A stretch of 64,000 bases of DNA from Limnobacter sp. CACIAM 66H1 (lineage in GTDB: Bacteria > Pseudomonadota > Gammaproteobacteria > Burkholderiales > Burkholderiaceae_B), in NCBI RefSeq assembly GCF_001601825.1, contig NZ_LUJK01000009.1:1-64000 (forward strand), written 5' to 3'. A program made the position numbers and the translations under genes. This document shows positions 46,111-55,255 of this stretch, piece by piece. Numbering within the stretch: the stretch's first letter is position 1; every line of letters starts with the position of its first letter. A model generated the notes under the pieces. That model did not search any database and was not told the origin of the DNA. It saw nothing but the letters and a program-made list of their open reading frames with translations.

Positions 46111-47265
46111 TCAAGGCAAGGACAGTCGCCAGATATTCCAGGTGGTGGTGCCAAACTGGCGCGTGAAACTGCCCTTGTTGTAGGGCAAGCCATACCGGGC
46201 TGCCAAGGCCTGCACCCGTGGTGACATTTCTGCGTAGCGGTTGGCAGGAATGTCCGGGAACAGGTGATGTTCAATTTGGTGGCTCAGGTTGCCCGACAAA
46301 ATATGGAACAGTTTGCCGCCTTGAATGTTACAGCTGCCCAGCAGTTGGCGCACATACCAGGCTGCGCGGGTTTCGCCTTCCACTTCTTCCTTGGTGAAGT
46401 GGTGCACACCTGCCGGGAAGTGGCCGCAGAAAATAATCACATTTGACCAAATATTGCGAATGCCGTTGGCAATCAAATTGGCCACAACGGTGAAGCCCAT
46501 GGCCACCAAGGCAATGTGCACAATGTCAAAGCCGAAGAACACCGTGAACGGCACGGTGACCGCGGCGCCCAGCAAAGGCCAGCACACATAATCCTTTAAC
46601 AGCTGGTGGCGCACCTTCCAGCCAATGCGTTTCAGCATGGGGATCACCTCCTTCCAGCTTTTCTGGCCAGCCATGAGTTTGTCTGCTTCCAGATCGTGCA
46701 GGGCCACACCCCACTGAAACAGCATCATCAACACAAAATTGATGACCGGGTTGAACAGGTACTTGGCATGCCAGCGTTGGTCGTCGGTAACCCGCAGCAC
46801 ACCGTAGCCAATGTCGGGGTCTTTGCCGTGCACATTGGTCCAGGTGTGATGCACTACGTTGTGGCTGTGTTTCCATTGGTCAGAAGGGCAGACGTTGTCC
46901 CATTCCCAGGTGTTGGATTGAATATTGGGATCGCGCATCCAGTCGAACTGGGCGTGCATGATGTTGTGCCCCAGCTCCATGTTCTCAATGCTTTTCGATA
47001 CCCCCAACATGATCGCGCCCAGTAGCAGCACGGCCCAGAACTGTGGCCAGCCGGTGAATGGCCATTCGCTCATCGGCAATAGGAAAAAGCTGAGAAACAC
47101 CACAATACGCCCGGCCAGCATCAGGCTGCGCTGCCATTTGATGACGGAGAGGATGTAAGCGCGGTCCTTGCTACCCAGCGAGTCAGCAATTTCATTGCGT
47201 ATGGCGTCCATTTCGCGACCGAATTCCTCAATGTCGCTGGCGCTCAAATGTTTTGGCATGCCCAT
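46111..47265 (-). CDS. Membrane fatty-acid desaturase (acyl-CoA/acyl-lipid type)
   Basis: A 384-residue integral-membrane di-iron desaturase. The three His boxes are GHNIMH, HNVVHH and HQIEHH, and the mid-sequence has SDQWKHSHNVVHHTWTNVHG. The ATG at 47265 has GGAG 7 bases upstream and was chosen over an ATG two codons later; the longer frame (to 47334) has no support. It lies 26 bases after the ferredoxin-reductase gene, which should supply its electrons. Family members put double bonds into acyl chains (often delta-9) to adjust membrane fluidity; position specificity here is unknown. Confidence 0.93.
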   Translation of the reverse strand: MGMPKHLSASDIEEFGREMDAIRNEIADSLGSKDRAYILSVIKWQRSLMLAGRIVVFLSFFLLPMSEWPFTGWPQFWAVLLLGAIMLGVSKSIENMELGHNIMHAQFDWMRDPNIQSNTWEWDNVCPSDQWKHSHNVVHHTWTNVHGKDPDIGYGVLRVTDDQRWHAKYLFNPVINFVLMMLFQWGVALHDLEADKLMAGQKSWKEVIPMLKRIGWKVRHQLLKDYVCWPLLGAAVTVPFTVFFGFDIVHIALVAMGFTVVANLIANGIRNIWSNVIIFCGHFPAGVHHFTKEEVEGETRAAWYVRQLLGSCNIQGGKLFHILSGNLSHQIEHHLFPDIPANRYAEMSPRVQALAARYGLPYNKGSFTRQFGTTTWNIWRLSLP

Positions 47266-47291: not shown

Positions 47292-48437
47292 TTACACTTC
47301 GATTTCTGCGTCGCCCACCGCGGCGCACACGCAAATCTGAATCACCTGGCCGGTTTCATTGATCAGTGCATTGGTCCGCAAATCGCGCACGCAGCCGCTG
47401 GCCAGTTTCACATCGCAACCGTGGCAAATCCCCATTCGGCAACCGTGTTCCGGATTCAAGCCCGAATCTTCGGCCAGGCGAAGCAGGTTGGTTTCACCGT
47501 CTGAGTTGGCGCTCACTTTGCTGTTCAAAAACTTCACCACGCCGGTTTTCACCTCGGTGGGAACGCCAGCCAGTTGAGCGCGGAACCGCTCCGTGTGCAC
47601 CTGTCGGCGAAGCCCTTCGGCTTCATACAGTTGCTCGATTGAATCGAGCATGGCTTGCGGGCCGCAGGCATACACATCACGTTTTCGCCAGTCGGGGCAC
47701 AGTTGCTCCAGTTGCTCTTTGGAAAAGTGGGGGCGTTTGCCGGTTATGTCTTCAGGCTTCTGGCCAGGTTCCCGGGTGTGCACCAGGTTCAGTTTGTACA
47801 GCTTTTGCTTGTCCGCAATTCCTTTCAGTTCACGCCCAAAAATCACATCGTAAGTGTGGGGCGCGTAGTGAATGTGCACGGTGTTGGGCATTCGCTCTTG
47901 CAGCACCAGGCTTCTCAACATGCTCATGATCGGTGTAATGCCGCTGCCCGCAGTAATAAACAGGGGCAGCACAGGCTGTGCGTCGGGCAGGTAAAAGTCG
48001 CCTTGTGGCACACCAATCGGCACGTAATCGCCCACTTTCAGCTTGCGCACCAGGTGGTGCGACATGCGGCCATTGTCGATGGCTTTCACCGTGATGGTGA
48101 AGCAGCCATCATTGCGTTCCGGGGCTGAACTGATTGAATAGGTGCGCGTGAAATGTTGCCCGCCAATGGGCACGCCAATGCGCAAGTGCTGACCAGGGCG
48201 GTGGCTTCGCCAGTTCAGGCCAGGGCGCAAGGTGATAGTGCGCGAGTCCGATGTTTCATCCCACACCGCTTCAACCCGCGCTTGCAGGGCATGAGTACTC
48301 CACAGCGGGTTGACCAGTTCGATGTAGTGGGAGGTTCGAAGGGGAAATGCAAAGGCATCGGAGACTTTCGTCACGAGGCCAGCTACACGTTTGATCAATG
48401 AGTTGTTGAACTGCGCGGATCCTGCCTCAGACTGCAT
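47292..48437 (-). CDS. Ferredoxin-NAD(P)H reductase with C-terminal 2Fe-2S domain
   Basis: A 381-residue electron-transfer protein. The FAD region is TRTYSISSAPE, the NAD(P) region has ITAGSGITPIMSMLRSL and ACGPQAMLDSIEQLYE, and the C-terminal plant-type 2Fe-2S domain has CRMGICHGC and a distant C (VCAAVG). AGGAG precedes the ATG at 48437. It sits directly before the desaturase gene, matching the known desaturase-reductase pairs (as DesB/DesC in pseudomonads), so it should feed electrons to the desaturase. Confidence 0.93.
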   Translation of the reverse strand: MQSEAGSAQFNNSLIKRVAGLVTKVSDAFAFPLRTSHYIELVNPLWSTHALQARVEAVWDETSDSRTITLRPGLNWRSHRPGQHLRIGVPIGGQHFTRTYSISSAPERNDGCFTITVKAIDNGRMSHHLVRKLKVGDYVPIGVPQGDFYLPDAQPVLPLFITAGSGITPIMSMLRSLVLQERMPNTVHIHYAPHTYDVIFGRELKGIADKQKLYKLNLVHTREPGQKPEDITGKRPHFSKEQLEQLCPDWRKRDVYACGPQAMLDSIEQLYEAEGLRRQVHTERFRAQLAGVPTEVKTGVVKFLNSKVSANSDGETNLLRLAEDSGLNPEHGCRMGICHGCDVKLASGCVRDLRTNALINETGQVIQICVCAAVGDAEIEV

Positions 48438-48563: not shown

Positions 48564-49733
48564 TTAACGGTTCCTTCCGTAGGCGTCGTGGGAGGAAACC
48601 CATTCATCCGCCAGAATGGCGGACAGCAAAGACAAATCTCCGGCCAGTACCGTGGCGCCCACAATCTCAGCCAGTTTGCGAGCTTTGCCAGCCCCCTCGC
48701 AGCCCAGCATTTTCAGGCACTCGGCCTGCGTGGCCAGGCCCGTTCCACCGCCTTTGGTGGCGCAGATCACCGAGGGCAATGTGACAGAGAAGTACAAATC
48801 CCCATCGGCTGTAATGTCCATGAACACCATGCCTGTGTGGCTTTCCACTACATTGGCTTCATCTTGCCCTGTGGCAATAAACAGGGCGGCAATGCCATTG
48901 GCCGAGTGGGGGCCACTGTAGGCACTGCCTGCCAGCTGCGCGCCTATGGCACTACGTTGGCGTTGCTTGAAAATTGTTTCCGGCGTGGTGCGGGCAAGCC
49001 GTTGCAGTACCTCGCGCTTGATGGTGGCTTCCGCAATCACACGCTTGCCCCGGCTGTGCAGCAGGTTCATGTGCGAATGTTTTTTGTCGGTTTCTATGGC
49101 ACCACTCAATGCGAAATAGCTGATGGCCTCCGGGCTGTTTTTCAGCACCCATTGGCAGGCTGCGTGCGTGGCTTTGCCGCACATGTTCTGGCCGGCTGCA
49201 TCACCTGTGGTGTAGTTAAAGCGCGTGTACACCATGCGCGCCACTTGCCAGGTTTGAATGTGCTCCAGTTTGCCAAAGCTGGTGGTTTTTTCTGCTTCGG
49301 CTTTGACCGTGGCCAGGTTTTCATTGATCCATTGCAAAAACCTTTTGGCCGCGCGGGCATCCTCGAATTCAAAAAGTGGTGCACGTTGCATGTATTCCTC
49401 GGCCACCGTCACCTTTACGCCGCCCGATTCGCTCACCATTCGCATGCCCCGGCTATAACTGGCCACCAGTGTGCCTTCGGTCGTGGCCAGTGGCACGTAA
49501 AACCAGCCTTGGGCATGTTCACCATGAATCAACACTGGTCCTGCCACACCCACCGGCATTTGCACCACACCAATGAAGTTCTCAGTGTTGCTTTTCAAAC
49601 TTTCAGGGGGCAGGGAATAGGTGCCAGTGTGGTGCAAGCTAGCTCCGGTTTGTTGTGTTAAAAATTCGCGGCGCGCTTTGGCAGCATCTTCCGAATAGTT
49701 GTCGTCAAAACGTGGAATGGGTGTGCGGGTCAT
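48564..49733 (-). CDS. Class I-type HMG-CoA reductase (catalytic domain only)
   Basis: A 389-residue cytosolic reductase that should make mevalonate from HMG-CoA with NADPH. Class I signatures are ENFIGVVQMPVGVAGP at 51-66, TTEGTLVASYSRG at 84-96 (catalytic Glu86), GDAAGQNM, TDKKHSHMNL (Lys217), GQDEANVVES (Asp291) and KGGGTGLATQ, with the C-terminal His382 in SSHDAYGRNR. There is no membrane anchor. Betaproteobacteria make isoprenoids by the MEP route, so this is unusual. It follows a coiled-coil gene by 20 bases and precedes the desaturase pair by 126 bases. It might supply mevalonate for a special product or act in catabolism. Confidence 0.93.
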   Translation of the reverse strand: MTRTPIPRFDDNYSEDAAKARREFLTQQTGASLHHTGTYSLPPESLKSNTENFIGVVQMPVGVAGPVLIHGEHAQGWFYVPLATTEGTLVASYSRGMRMVSESGGVKVTVAEEYMQRAPLFEFEDARAAKRFLQWINENLATVKAEAEKTTSFGKLEHIQTWQVARMVYTRFNYTTGDAAGQNMCGKATHAACQWVLKNSPEAISYFALSGAIETDKKHSHMNLLHSRGKRVIAEATIKREVLQRLARTTPETIFKQRQRSAIGAQLAGSAYSGPHSANGIAALFIATGQDEANVVESHTGMVFMDITADGDLYFSVTLPSVICATKGGGTGLATQAECLKMLGCEGAGKARKLAEIVGATVLAGDLSLLSAILADEWVSSHDAYGRNR

Positions 49734-49753: not shown

Positions 49754-50170
49754 TTATTTGCGCTTGGGTTTGGTGCCACGGGTGACCGCAGCAATCGACT
49801 CTTCGTAGCCGCTCACCAGCTTGCCAATGTTTTCCAGCTTGGCCTTCAGCACATTGAGTTCCATTTGGGTGCGGTCCAGTTGCATGGTCAGGTGGGCGTT
49901 GTCTTTCTCCAGCCCGACCATGGTTTTGTGCAGCTCGCGGTTTTCCTGCTCCAGTTCTTTGTTGGCTTGATACATTTTCAACAAGTTGGCTTGCAAGCCT
50001 TTGACCTTGTCCTGAACACCATCTACTGTTTGCTTGATACCGGTTTCAAATTGATTCACCTGGTCAACCACTGCGTTGATCAAGTGTCCTGCAGGCAGGC
50101 TGGATGCCCTTTTCTGTGCCGCGCTTTTCAGTTTGCGCAATGCGTTACCACCTTTCTCTGCCACGCCCAT
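49754..50170 (-). CDS. Coiled-coil protein upstream of HMG-CoA reductase
   Basis: A 138-residue soluble protein. After a basic N-terminus (KLKSAAQKRASSLPAGHLI) it forms one long coiled coil (about 30-120) with NLLKMYQANKELEQENRELH and LEKDNAHLTMQLDRTQMELN, and a basic tail (TRGTKPKRK). GGAG lies 7 bases before the ATG at 50170. Not recognised as a named family. It is in the same orientation as the reductase and probably cotranscribed; a scaffolding or regulatory role is possible but not supported by any motif. Confidence 0.78.
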   Translation of the reverse strand: MGVAEKGGNALRKLKSAAQKRASSLPAGHLINAVVDQVNQFETGIKQTVDGVQDKVKGLQANLLKMYQANKELEQENRELHKTMVGLEKDNAHLTMQLDRTQMELNVLKAKLENIGKLVSGYEESIAAVTRGTKPKRK

Positions 50171-50390: not shown

Positions 50391-51038
50391 ATGCTTCAAG
50401 ACAAGCAGCAGTCCGCACGGCAAAAGCTGGTGCAGGCCGCACTGATCACCTTCGCTGAAAAAGGCTATGAGGGCGCTTCTACGCGCGAAATCGCCGACAA
50501 GGCGGGTGCCAATATATCCTCTATTCGCTATTACTTCGGCGACAAGGCTGGTCTTTACAGGGCCGCTTATACCGAGCCCCTGTGCGGCACGCCGTTTGAG
50601 CAGGGCATTCCTGATTTGAACAGCACCGATGTGGACAAGGCGCTGAAGCAATTGTTCCGGGATTTTCTGGAGCCTTTGAAGCACGGTGAAACATTTCGTT
50701 TGGTGATGAAATTGCACTTTCGCGAAATGATTGAACCCACCGGTGCCTGGGAACATGAAATAGACGCGGAAATCAAGCCACAGCACATGGCCTTGGTCAA
50801 CATGCTGACCGCCTATTTTGGTTTGACCAAACCCGACCTGGACATTCAACGCCTGGCCTTCGCCATGATGGGCATGGCGGTTAATTTTTATGTGGCTCAA
50901 GATGTGGTCGATGTGATTTGCCCCAAATTGATGGGCAACGCCAAAGCCATTGATACCTTGAGTGATCGCTTGGCCGGTTATGCCAAGGCCATGCTGGAAA
51001 GTGAAAGCAAACGACGCAAACAGGATTGCAGCAAATGA
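50391..51038 (+). CDS. TetR-family regulator (CecR/YbiH-like) of an RND operon
   Basis: A 215-residue regulator. The helix-turn-helix part shows ARQKLVQAALITFAEKGYEG, STREIADKAGANISSIRYYF and DKAGLYRAAY. The C-terminal part (PTGAWEHEIDAEIKPQHMAL) matches the DUF1956-type ligand domain seen in CecR/YbiH regulators next to MFP/efflux genes. It starts at 50391 behind the tandem palindromes, and its stop overlaps the adaptor start in ATGA. It is the first gene of the operon. Confidence 0.92.
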   Translation: MLQDKQQSARQKLVQAALITFAEKGYEGASTREIADKAGANISSIRYYFGDKAGLYRAAYTEPLCGTPFEQGIPDLNSTDVDKALKQLFRDFLEPLKHGETFRLVMKLHFREMIEPTGAWEHEIDAEIKPQHMALVNMLTAYFGLTKPDLDIQRLAFAMMGMAVNFYVAQDVVDVICPKLMGNAKAIDTLSDRLAGYAKAMLESESKRRKQDCSK

Positions 51039-52147
51039 ACATTTCAATGGTTTTAAGCAAATACCCCGTCGCCATGCTCGCGGCAACCTTGCTGCTGGGA
51101 GCTTGTTCACCCAGCGCCGAGCAAGCCGAGCCTGAAGTGGCAGGCGACACACAAGCGCCCGGCAAAGCCAGTTTGTCGGTTCAGTTGGCTGTGATTGAAC
51201 AGAAAACGATTCCGCTGAAACTGTCGGTGAATGGCAGCGTGGCGGCCTGGCAAGAGGCCGTGATCGGTTCCCAGTTGAACGGTGTACGCATTGATGCCTT
51301 GCGGGCTGAAGTGGGCGATGTGGTCAAGAAAGGTCAAACGCTGGCCGTATTCGATCAACAAACGGTGAATGCCGATTTGGCACAGGCCAAAGCGGGAGTG
51401 GCCGAGGCGCAAGCCCTGTTTGAACAAGCCAGGTTGAATGCCGACATGATTCGCAACATCACCGACCAAGGGGCGGTCAGTGCACAGGAGCGCAATCAGG
51501 TCATCGCCGCAGAGAAGTCTGCACAGGCCCGTTTGTTGTCAGCCAAGGCGCTTCAAACCCAACAGGAAATTCGTTTGCGCAACACCACGGTCACTGCCCT
51601 GGACGATGGCGTGATCAGCGCGCGCACGGCCACCTTGGGTTCAGTGCCAGCCCCGGGGCAAGAGCTGTTTCGCTTGGTGCGTCAGCAGCGCCTGGAGTGG
51701 CAGGCGGAGGTCACGGATTCTGAGTTGACTCGCATCAAGGAGGGCATGGCAGTGCAGGTGCTCCATGAAGCAGAGCCCATCAAGGGGATTGTTCGTACCA
51801 TCAGCCCGGTCATCAATTCACAATCAAGAAATGGCATGGTGTATGTCGATTTGCCCGGAGCGTATTCCAAGGGCTTGAAGCCTGGCATGTACTTGCGCGG
51901 TGAGTTTGATTTGGGTGAACAAACGGCCACGGTGATTCCGCAAACCGCGGTGATTGAACGTGACGGGTTTACCTACGCCTTTACGCTGGATGAAAAAACC
52001 AGTCAGGTTCAACGCGTGAAGCTGGAGGTGAACCGGGCCCAGGGCGAATTCATTGAAGTGCTCAATGGTTTGAAGCCTGGTGACAAGGTGGTGAGAAGCG
52101 GTGTGGCCTTCCTGGCCCATGGTGATTTCGTGAAGGTGGTTCAGTGA
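51035..52147 (+). CDS. RND efflux adaptor lipoprotein
   Basis: A 370-residue membrane-fusion protein. The signal ends with LLLGAC, with the lipid Cys near 24. It shows lipoyl halves (GSQLNGVRIDALRAEVGDVV and LRNTTVTALDDGVISARTA), a helical hairpin between them, and the beta-barrel part (GMVYVDLPG). It overlaps the TetR stop in ATGA and its own stop overlaps the pump start in GTGA. It links the pump to an outer-membrane channel that is not encoded here. Confidence 0.93.
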   Translation: MNISMVLSKYPVAMLAATLLLGACSPSAEQAEPEVAGDTQAPGKASLSVQLAVIEQKTIPLKLSVNGSVAAWQEAVIGSQLNGVRIDALRAEVGDVVKKGQTLAVFDQQTVNADLAQAKAGVAEAQALFEQARLNADMIRNITDQGAVSAQERNQVIAAEKSAQARLLSAKALQTQQEIRLRNTTVTALDDGVISARTATLGSVPAPGQELFRLVRQQRLEWQAEVTDSELTRIKEGMAVQVLHEAEPIKGIVRTISPVINSQSRNGMVYVDLPGAYSKGLKPGMYLRGEFDLGEQTATVIPQTAVIERDGFTYAFTLDEKTSQVQRVKLEVNRAQGEFIEVLNGLKPGDKVVRSGVAFLAHGDFVKVVQ

Positions 52148-55100
52148 ACGTCTCAACCTGGTCAATCAAGAACCCGATTCCTGCGGTGATGCTGTTTTTC
52201 CTGCTCACGGTGGCAGGGCTCTTCAGCTTTTCAAGCATGAAGATCCAGCAGTTTCCGGACATCGAGTTGCCCACGGTGCTGGTGACTGCCAGCCTGCCGG
52301 GTGCATCGCCTGCGCAGCTTGAAAATGATGTAGCGCGCAAAATTGAAAACTCGCTGGCCACACTGCAACAACTCAAACACATCTACACCAAGATTCAGGA
52401 CGGCATCGTTAGTATCACCGTTGAATTCAACCTGGAAAAAGACACCCAGGAAGCGGTGGACGATGTGCGTTCTGCGGTGTCCCGTGTGCGTGCAGACTTG
52501 CCCACTGATCTGCGCGACCCGGTGATCAACAAACTGGAGCTGAGCGGTGCCCCGGTGCTGGCTTACACCATTGCATCCACAGCTTTTGATGAAGAAGGTT
52601 TGTCCTGGTATGTGGACGACACCATCACCAAAACCCTGTTGAACGTGAAAGGTGTGGGCGCTGTAAACCGGGTGGGCGGTGTAACACGCCAGGTGGTGGT
52701 TGAATTAGACCCGTTGAAGATGCAGGCCCTGGGTGTGAGTGCGCTGGACGTGTCGCGCCAGTTGCGCAACACCCAGCTGGAGGCCGCGGGTGGTCGCGCA
52801 GACTTGGGCGTTGGCGAGCAACCATTGCGTACCATCGCCACCGTGGAGAATGCCAATCAGTTAAAGGAAATCTCCATCTCCTTGAGCAATGGTCGCCGGG
52901 TCAAGCTGACTGAAATTGCCACGATCAAAGACACGATTGCAGACCGGCGTTCGGCGGCTTTACTGAATGGTCAGGACGTGGTGGGTTTTGAGATCACGCG
53001 AAGCAAGGGTGCCAGTGAAGTGGAAGTGGGGCAGGGGGTGGCCAAGGCGCTGGCTGATCTGCAGGCTCAGCGGCCCGACCTCACCATTGTGGAGGCGTTC
53101 AACTTCGTGGAGCCTGTGAAAGAGGATTTCGACAGCTCCATGAAAATGCTCTACGAGGGAGCATTTCTGGCCGTGGTGGTGGTGTGGTTTTTCCTGCGCG
53201 ACTGGCGCGCCACCTTTGTGTCTGCAGTGGCTTTGCCCTTGTCGATCATTCCGGCTTTTGCCGGCATGTATTACCTGGGCTTCAGTCTGAATGTGGTGTC
53301 ACTTCTGGCCATGTCGCTGGTGGTGGGTATATTGGTGGACGATGCCATCGTGGAGGTTGAAAACATCGTTCGACACTCCAGAATGGGCAAGAACCCGATT
53401 GATGCTGCACGCGAAGCCGCCGATGAAATCGGTCTGGCAGTGATTGCCACCACATTTACCTTGATTGCCGTGTTCCTGCCCACCGCATTCATGAGCGGCG
53501 TGGCTGGCAAGTTTTTCGTTCAATTTGGCTGGACAGCCTCACTGGCTGTGTTCGCCTCACTGGTGGTGGCGCGCATGCTGACGCCCATGATGGCAGCTTA
53601 CATGCTCAAGCCAGCGGGTCACGAAAGCGAGAAAAACGAGCCCGGGAAAATGATGGTCCGCTACCTGGACTGGGTACGCTGGGCGCTGGCTCACAGGTGG
53701 ATTACCTGTATTGCGGCGGGTGCTTTTTTCGTGGGCTCCATCATGTTGATCCCACTGTTGCCCACCGGTTTTATTCCGCCCGATGATCTGTCACAAACCC
53801 AGGTTTATCTGGAACTGCAACCGGGCAGCACGTACGAGCAAACTCGTGAGGCTGCGGAAAAAGCCCGTGAGCTGGTCAGTGAAGTGGAATACGTTCGCAG
53901 TGTGTACACCACCATTGGCGGTGGTTCTGCGGGAACGGATCCATTCATGATGAGCGGTCAGGCCGAGGTGCGCAAAGCCACGCTCACGGTGCTGCTCGAT
54001 CCGCGCGGTGAACGCGCCGTACGCAAGCAAGTGACCGAAACACAAATGCGTGAGGCGCTCAGCAACCTGCCCGGTGTGCGTTACAAAGTGGGGCTGGGTG
54101 CGTCTGGCGAGAAGTATGTGTTGGTGCTGTCAGGCGATGATGGTGACGCGTTGTCCAAGGCCGCCGCGGAAGTGGAGCGTGATCTTCGCACCATTCCCGG
54201 TTTGGGCTCCATTGCATCCAGTGCAGCTTTGGTTCGTCCCGAAGTCTGGATCAAGCCCGATTTTGCCAAGGCGGCCGATTTGGGCGTCAGCACCGCAGCC
54301 ATGGGCGAAACCCTGCGTGTCGCCACGGTCGGTGATTATGACGCGGCCTTGCCCAAACTGAATTTGTCTCAACGCCAGGTGCCGATCGTGGTTCGTCTGG
54401 ACGAGGCAGCGCGTGCCGACCTCAGCGTGCTTGAGCGCCTTGCAGTGCCTCCAGCAAGCCAGGAGTGCCCCAGTGTGCCTTTGAACCAGGTCGCCACTTT
54501 GGGCATCAACGCGGGCCCCTCGGTGATTGATCGTTACGATCGTGCCCGCAACGTGAACTTTGAAATTGAATTGCAGGGTCAACCGTTGGGTGATGTGGCT
54601 GCAGCGGTTCAGCAACTGCCCAGCATCAAAAAACCTGCCACCTGGTGTGGCTCAACGCAATATCGGTGATGCCGAGGTGATGGAAGAACTGTTCGCCAGT
54701 TTCGGTTTGGCCATGCTCACAGGTGTGTTGTGCATTTTTGTGGTGCTGGTGTTGTTGTTCAAGGATTTCCTGCAACCAGTCACCATTCTGGCCGCACTTC
54801 CGCTGAGTTTGGGGGGGGCATTCGTGGGTCTGTTGATTGCGGGTAAAAGCTTCTCCATGCCCTCACTGATCGGCTTGATCATGTTGATGGGCATTGCCAC
54901 CAAGAATTCGATTCTGTTGGTGGAGTACGCCATCATGGCGCGCAATGACAAAGGCATGAGCAGGCTGGATGCGGTGGTGGACGCCTGTCACAAGCGCGCC
55001 CGCCCCATCATCATGACTACGATTGCCATGGCGGCGGGCATGTTACCCATCGCCATTGGCACTGGCGATGCAGACACCAGCTTTCGCAGTCCAATGGCGA

Positions 55101-55255
55101 TTGCGGTCATCGGTGGTTTGATGACATCCACTTTCTTGAGCCTCTTGGTTATTCCCGTGGTGTATACCTTGATGGATGACTTTGAGCATGGCATGAAAAG
55201 TTTGTATCAAAAAATGGGTTCAACATTCAAGCAGTCTGGAGCACGCAACACATGA
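52144..55255 (+). pseudogene. RND efflux pump, frameshifted at an A6 run
   Basis: Two frames together encode an RND pump of about 1037 residues. The first (52144-54669, GTG start) runs MNVSTWSIKNPIPAVMLFFL through TM4 GILVDDAIVEVENIV and most of the second periplasmic loop, up to QQLPSIK. The second frame continues NLPPGVAQRNIGDAEVMEEL, TM10 MGIATKNSILLVEYA, and ends at 55255. The join is the run of six A at 54628-54633; five A give SIKNLPPGV, as expected. If the extra base is real the last four or five membrane helices are lost and the pump is dead. The nitroreductase gene starts within its stop codon (ATGA). Confidence 0.9.

Follow-up and report, generated by a model that had tools for sequence, protein, structure and literature searches.

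The 64,000-nucleotide stretch of Limnobacter sp. CACIAM 66H1 analysed here (the window) carries a real gene for a full-length class I-type HMG-CoA reductase, which is, as far as the profiles used here reach, an orphan reductase in an organism of the MEP pathway. It belongs to a distinct, mostly proteobacterial clade that is probably uncoupled from isoprenoid synthesis and serves something else. The best explanation, at a little short of an even chance, is that the enzyme is a mevalonate/HMG-CoA (or close analogue) oxidoreductase serving catabolism. The gene is located as follows.

48564..49733, minus strand: class I-type HMG-CoA reductase, 389 aa, ATG start, open reading frame intact

The initial annotation had noted class I motifs and a complete set of catalytic residues in this protein, and profiles, fold and alignment all confirmed this. 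Pfam HMG-CoA_red (PF00368) matched at 412.6 bits (cut-off 27) over profile positions 2-368 of 368, all four catalytic residues (Glu86, Lys217, Asp291 and His382) are present, and residues 216-223 read DKKHSHMN. The NCBIfam class I, NADPH model TIGR00533 gave 369.3 bits, below its curated cut-off of 441.8, and the degradative class II model TIGR00532 gave 33.5 bits, below its curated cut-off of 259.95; the protein is thus class I in type, yet outside the curated NADPH model. The predicted structure (mean pLDDT 87.9, pTM 0.86) matched class I structures with Z scores of 40.4-45.1, the human and archaeal class I enzymes standing at 44-45, and class II structures with 27.8-31.2. In both sequence and fold the protein is nearer class I than class II. 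No other HMG-CoA reductase family match was found in its own genome.

The top match, by sequence as well as by Foldseek, was the class I enzyme of Methanothermococcus thermolithotrophicus (PDB 6hr7/6hr8; 45% identity, TM-score 0.88), which has DKKPAG where the window protein has DKKHSH and DAMGMN where it has DAAGQN. Archaea use mevalonate for isoprenoids. The catalytic domain of human HMG-CoA reductase (PDB 1dqa) shares the fold (Z 45.1 over 378 residues, 36% identity); unlike the human enzyme, the window protein has no membrane domain, and its host has no detectable mevalonate pathway. A class I-type HMG-CoA reductase in MEP bacteria is also known from Vibrio.

The pathway context of the host was assessed with profile searches of 20 clade-carrying genomes, including that of the window. 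DXR was found in all 20, and HMG-CoA synthase in none of them with either PF01154 (0/20) or PF08540 (0/20). As a positive control, PF08540 recovered the synthase in both control genomes of the same class. Both synthase profiles missed a Bacteroidota genome (G019) in which the mevalonate pathway is expected, given its three GHMP genes and the lack of a DXR match; the synthase negative is therefore good for Proteobacteria and not absolute. GHMP-family matches numbered one in 17/20 clade genomes and two in 3/20, and the one in the window's genome, where the match itself was read, is IspE, above cut-off. An HMG-CoA lyase gene of the same genome (430.5 bits, cut-off 246) immediately follows a gene for a biotin-dependent carboxylase, which we infer to be methylcrotonyl-CoA carboxylase. 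This gene order is the one expected for leucine catabolism, so that HMG-CoA can form from leucine without HMG-CoA synthase. The initial annotation had assumed an MEP host, had seen no other mevalonate-pathway genes in the window, and had taken a complete pathway elsewhere that relatives share as grounds for calling the gene ordinary. The search found DXR (IspC) and the lyase, no GHMP kinase other than IspE and no synthase; neither synthase nor mevalonate kinase, the pair that would mark a biosynthetic mevalonate pathway, was detected in this genome, and an ordinary mevalonate pathway is excluded within the reach of the profiles.

The reductase is not a strain oddity; it is genus-wide. Relatives at 94-99% identity came from named Limnobacter records, and a scan of 200 genomes of the family detected a relative of at least 79% identity in 12, namely 10/10 genomes of the own genus and 2/2 of one other genus. 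In the rest of the family, 0/188 genomes had a close relative; 23 of them gave weak matches, and the seven that were read were of class II type. Relatives of at least 54% identity occurred in 9/369 genomes of the class, and relatives of at least 50% identity in 42/244 genomes of the order of Zhongshania, 7 of which carry two or three copies. In the Kordiimonas class, 1/385 genomes was positive, this being the centre genome itself, and a scan of named genomes added several Parvularculaceae carriers. In three genomes of one family (L093, L094 and L097), HMG-CoA reductase matches contain in-frame stops (a TGA plus a TAG in two of them, a single TGA in the third), which may mark pseudogenes, errors or recoding.

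A tree of 115 rows, built with FastTree only and leaving out class II fragments and duplicate Limnobacter loci, separated the 87 clade rows from the others by a branch of support 100. The clade is patchy in Gamma- and Alphaproteobacteria, and one row (L037) carries the title of an actinobacterial bin. A set of 15 rows (FastTree support 99), made up of the window protein, other Limnobacter and close kin, was joined with Spongiibacteraceae in a 30-row group (FastTree support 99). This grouping, together with the lack of close relatives elsewhere in the family, fits a single transfer into the Limnobacter lineage. Acquisition by transfer, already proposed in the initial annotation, is thus suggested by the FastTree topology and the distribution within the family, and the donor was probably a gammaproteobacterium related to Spongiibacteraceae.

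Residue conservation was counted in an alignment of the 87 clade rows with 28 outgroup rows (12 mevalonate-pathway, 16 other). Glu86, Lys217 and Asp291 are kept in 87/87 clade rows, His382 in 86/87, where the one miss is a gap, and Arg117 in 87/87. Around this core the clade has a signature of its own. DKKH at positions 216-219 occurs in 72/87 clade rows and in 0/28 outgroup rows, 40 clade rows have the full DKKHSHMN of the window, and Asp216 is replaced by Glu in 11. Gln116 (87/87), Met97 (84/87) and Ala325 (84/87) are kept in the clade, and position 327, Val or Ile in all 28 outgroup rows, is Tyr, Lys, His, Phe or Arg in 86/87 clade rows. Position 152, which we take to correspond to human Arg627 near the NADPH phosphate, is Ser in 59/87 clade rows and Arg in 14/87; it is Arg in 11/12 mevalonate-pathway rows and 10/16 other outgroup rows. 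Position 260, presumably equivalent to human Lys735, a binder of the HMG carboxylate, is Lys in 12/12 mevalonate-pathway rows and in 0/87 clade rows, a difference that says little since Lys is likewise missing from the other outgroup rows (0/16) and since the Arg found in 30 clade rows, the window included, lies beside an alignment gap.

These changes are compatible with altered substrate or cofactor use and prove neither. They bear on a rival explanation, in which the clade has moved to another branched acyl-CoA, either reduced or formed from the alcohol, and is HMG-CoA reductase by descent only, with a new role in terpenoid, wax, aromatic or ester metabolism. DKKH, Gln116, Ala325, Met97, the residues other than Val or Ile at 327 and the Asp216-to-Glu exchange in 11 rows all favour it, as do the two or three copies in 7/42 carrier genomes of one order, whose neighbours differ. 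The retention of the four catalytic residues (one gap) and of Arg117 in 87/87 rows speaks against it, and the missing Lys at 260 is a weak argument, being missing from the 16 other outgroup rows as well. We consider this change of substrate unlikely on balance, though a live rival of the catabolic reading.

The immediate neighbours of the window gene offered another reading, and the layout given in the initial annotation, with a coiled-coil open reading frame upstream and a reductase and desaturase downstream, was confirmed:

49754..50170, minus strand: coiled-coil protein, ATG at 50170 after AGGAGA, no Pfam family above cut-off
47292..48437, minus strand: FAD/NAD/2Fe-2S reductase-like protein, probable desaturase electron donor, ATG at 48437
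46111..47265, minus strand: fatty-acid desaturase family protein (PF00487), ATG at 47265
50391..51038, plus strand: TetR-family regulator with CecR C-terminal domain, divergent, with an RND efflux set after it

The coiled-coil gene ends 20 bp before the reductase start. It had been described as private, together with a membrane- or lipid-related use drawn from it and the reductase-desaturase pair. In fact, the coiled-coil gene lies near the reductase in 8/95 fetched loci, all belonging to one Limnobacter group, which has 9 loci besides the window, and the donor-desaturase pair likewise in 8/95, all among the same 9. None of the three genes occurs in the 86 remaining fetched loci, including the Limnobacter-group loci L009-L013 (5/5); the only near-exceptions are two distant reductase-type matches of 24-29% identity (L162 and L191). 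A joint function of the reductase with the adjoining desaturase and electron donor in membrane-lipid remodelling would fit the close order of four same-strand genes in the window, which recurs in the loci of the one Limnobacter group with one gene missing in some. However, the set is absent from 5/5 other Limnobacter-group loci and from all fetched loci outside that group, donor and desaturase each have their own AGGAGA-type start site, and a promoter-like match near the gap was no commoner than expected by chance. Because the neighbours are common to one Limnobacter group alone, the data do not support a desaturase- or membrane-linked role, and we regard it as very improbable; donor and desaturase are neighbours and not conserved partners of the reductase.

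The TetR regulator and the RND efflux set are probably unrelated to the reductase. Within this set, the pump gene at 52144-55255 (plus strand) is split into two overlapping frames of 841 aa and 231 aa, and its relative in locus L026 is a single frame of 1036 aa; the frameshift, close to where the first frame ends, is either true or a sequencing error.

No gene partner conserved across the clade was found: most neighbours that recur do so within a genus or family, some seeming recurrences proved to be reverse-frame artefacts of mechanical ORF calling, and operons, where present, vary in content. At the Spongiibacteraceae-side loci, a Sodium:dicarboxylate-family symporter gene is next upstream in 9, a CoA-transferase family III gene lies downstream in 7 and an esterase gene in 5, and the operons of Zhongshania and its kin contain symporter, esterase and CoA-transferase. 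The operon of L154 holds an AMP ligase and a wax-ester synthase, L188 has a wax-ester synthase by similarity, and the L195 operon, also by similarity, combines a lipase family gene with a pair of acyl-CoA dehydrogenases. The wax-ester-synthase genes and the secretory-lipase family are neighbours that would also suit the change of substrate discussed above. In two operon-like runs (L158:8746-15795, by similarity, and L174:5662-12674), the clade reductase is found with an RPE65-family dioxygenase and an aldehyde dehydrogenase, alongside enoyl-CoA hydratase or acyl-CoA dehydrogenases. The RPE65-family genes matched lignostilbene and apo-carotenoid dioxygenase models about equally and remained under every NCBIfam cut-off, so terpenoid breakdown is not shown by them.

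Beta-oxidation-type genes were present at 20/46 clade loci and at 5/40 other stretches of the same genome set, an enrichment biased upward because the query genes came mostly from HMG-CoA reductase loci. The control places were picked by hand at round coordinates, and the comparison left out 8 outgroup loci, 4 clade loci of at most 12 kb and the named loci L002-L038. By family, with counts uncorrected for the many families compared, clade and control loci had AMP-binding in 9/46 and 2/40, acyl-CoA dehydrogenase in 10/46 and 3/40, AraC in 9/46 and 1/40, enoyl-CoA hydratase in 5/46 and 2/40, thiolase in 3/46 and 2/40, lipase in 3/46 and 0/40, wax-ester synthase in 3/46 and 1/40, SDR in 9/46 and 10/40, and TonB in 6/46 and 7/40; single-family enrichments are at best marginal. 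Outside Limnobacter, the clade neighbours point weakly to acyl-CoA and ester breakdown.

Iron-type alcohol dehydrogenase genes lie within three genes of the reductase at four loci, two of the Limnobacter group (L011:11286-12500 and L012:8644-9885, on the opposite strand) and two on the Pseudomonadales side (L144:9629-10786 and L145:9247-10416); that of L012 was scanned, and the others were assigned by similarity.

In the preferred reading, the enzyme would catalyse the conversion between HMG-CoA and mevalonate, or a closely similar 3-hydroxy-3-methyl compound, with oxidation as the more probable direction. Mevalonate obtained by scavenging, or a product of the degradation of a branched compound, would thereby be converted to HMG-CoA, and HMG-CoA lyase would cleave this to acetoacetate and acetyl-CoA. 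The overall scheme would resemble that of the Pseudomonas mevalonii class II enzyme, but on a class I scaffold. The window protein and the degradative class II enzyme have the superfamily fold in common (Z about 29), and mevalonate breakdown is a possible common role; they differ in having about 20% identity, and in the window's genome the HMG-CoA lyase lies on a different contig from the reductase. An MEP host in which HMG-CoA synthase was not found, a lyase in leucine-type gene order, the preserved family, fold and catalytic residues, the symporter, CoA-transferase and esterase neighbours and the excess of beta-oxidation genes all argue for catabolism. Against it stand the marginal single-family counts and upward bias of that excess, the lack of any adjoining catabolic partner in Limnobacter, and the 30/85 clade loci (a few being duplicates) that have no same-strand neighbour within 120 bp. 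The lyase, too, is not tied to the gene: it was found in 37/42 genomes with the reductase and in 27/38 genomes of the same drawn set (order of Zhongshania) without any reductase match, and G017, with three clade copies, gave no lyase match. We therefore rejected this non-discriminating co-occurrence as proof of catabolism.

The leucine route also opens the reverse possibility, that HMG-CoA derived from leucine, supplied without HMG-CoA synthase, is reduced to mevalonate, to be exported, used in signalling or turned into a special lipid or other product. Characterised class I HMG-CoA reductases act reductively, which speaks for this rival. So does the cofactor, reported in PMC13370337 to be NADPH only for characterised class I enzymes, a point that also counts against the catabolic reading. 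The Ruegeria pomeroyi enzyme prefers NADH and is compared with class II enzymes in PMC12292504. Mevalonate production is further favoured by an outgroup cluster in which reductase and kinase-like domain form one fused protein, with AMP-ligase genes close by, but this fusion falls outside the clade, and no mevalonate-using gene was recognised near the reductase in Limnobacter. We judge it quite unlikely, albeit likewise a live rival. The secondary-product role mentioned in the initial annotation is possible, without gene support in this analysis.

The outgroup fusions comprise four loci (L178:1685-4660, L179, L180 and L189) with HMG-CoA reductase inside frames of 808-991 aa. The C-terminal part of the L178 frame, the only one scanned, matched the APH and ecdysteroid-kinase-like families, and AMP-ligase-type genes lie near all four (one scanned). 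These fusions possibly represent a mevalonate-phosphate route outside isoprenoid synthesis.

A literature search that left most subscription journals outside its reach found no paper on the clade, nor any on Limnobacter and hydroxymethylglutaryl-CoA reductase. In their accessible parts, PMC13370337, PMC13001223 and PMC12292504 deal with class I enzymes in general terms and do not treat the clade.

More broadly, and with a probability we place somewhat below even, the clade may be a functionally new offshoot of the class I HMG-CoA reductase fold that MEP-using Proteobacteria recruited for the breakdown of terpenoids or other branched compounds. It would act on mevalonate or on another branched acyl-CoA/alcohol pair, and its cofactor use would have changed. 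Few enzymes have been studied as much as HMG-CoA reductase, which is usually read as a marker of the mevalonate pathway. If a conserved class I-type clade indeed resides in bacteria without the pathway, inferring the pathway from the gene would be misleading, and the clade would provide a naturally occurring class I enzyme with a role other than isoprenoid synthesis, in which the determinants of direction, cofactor and substrate could be traced.
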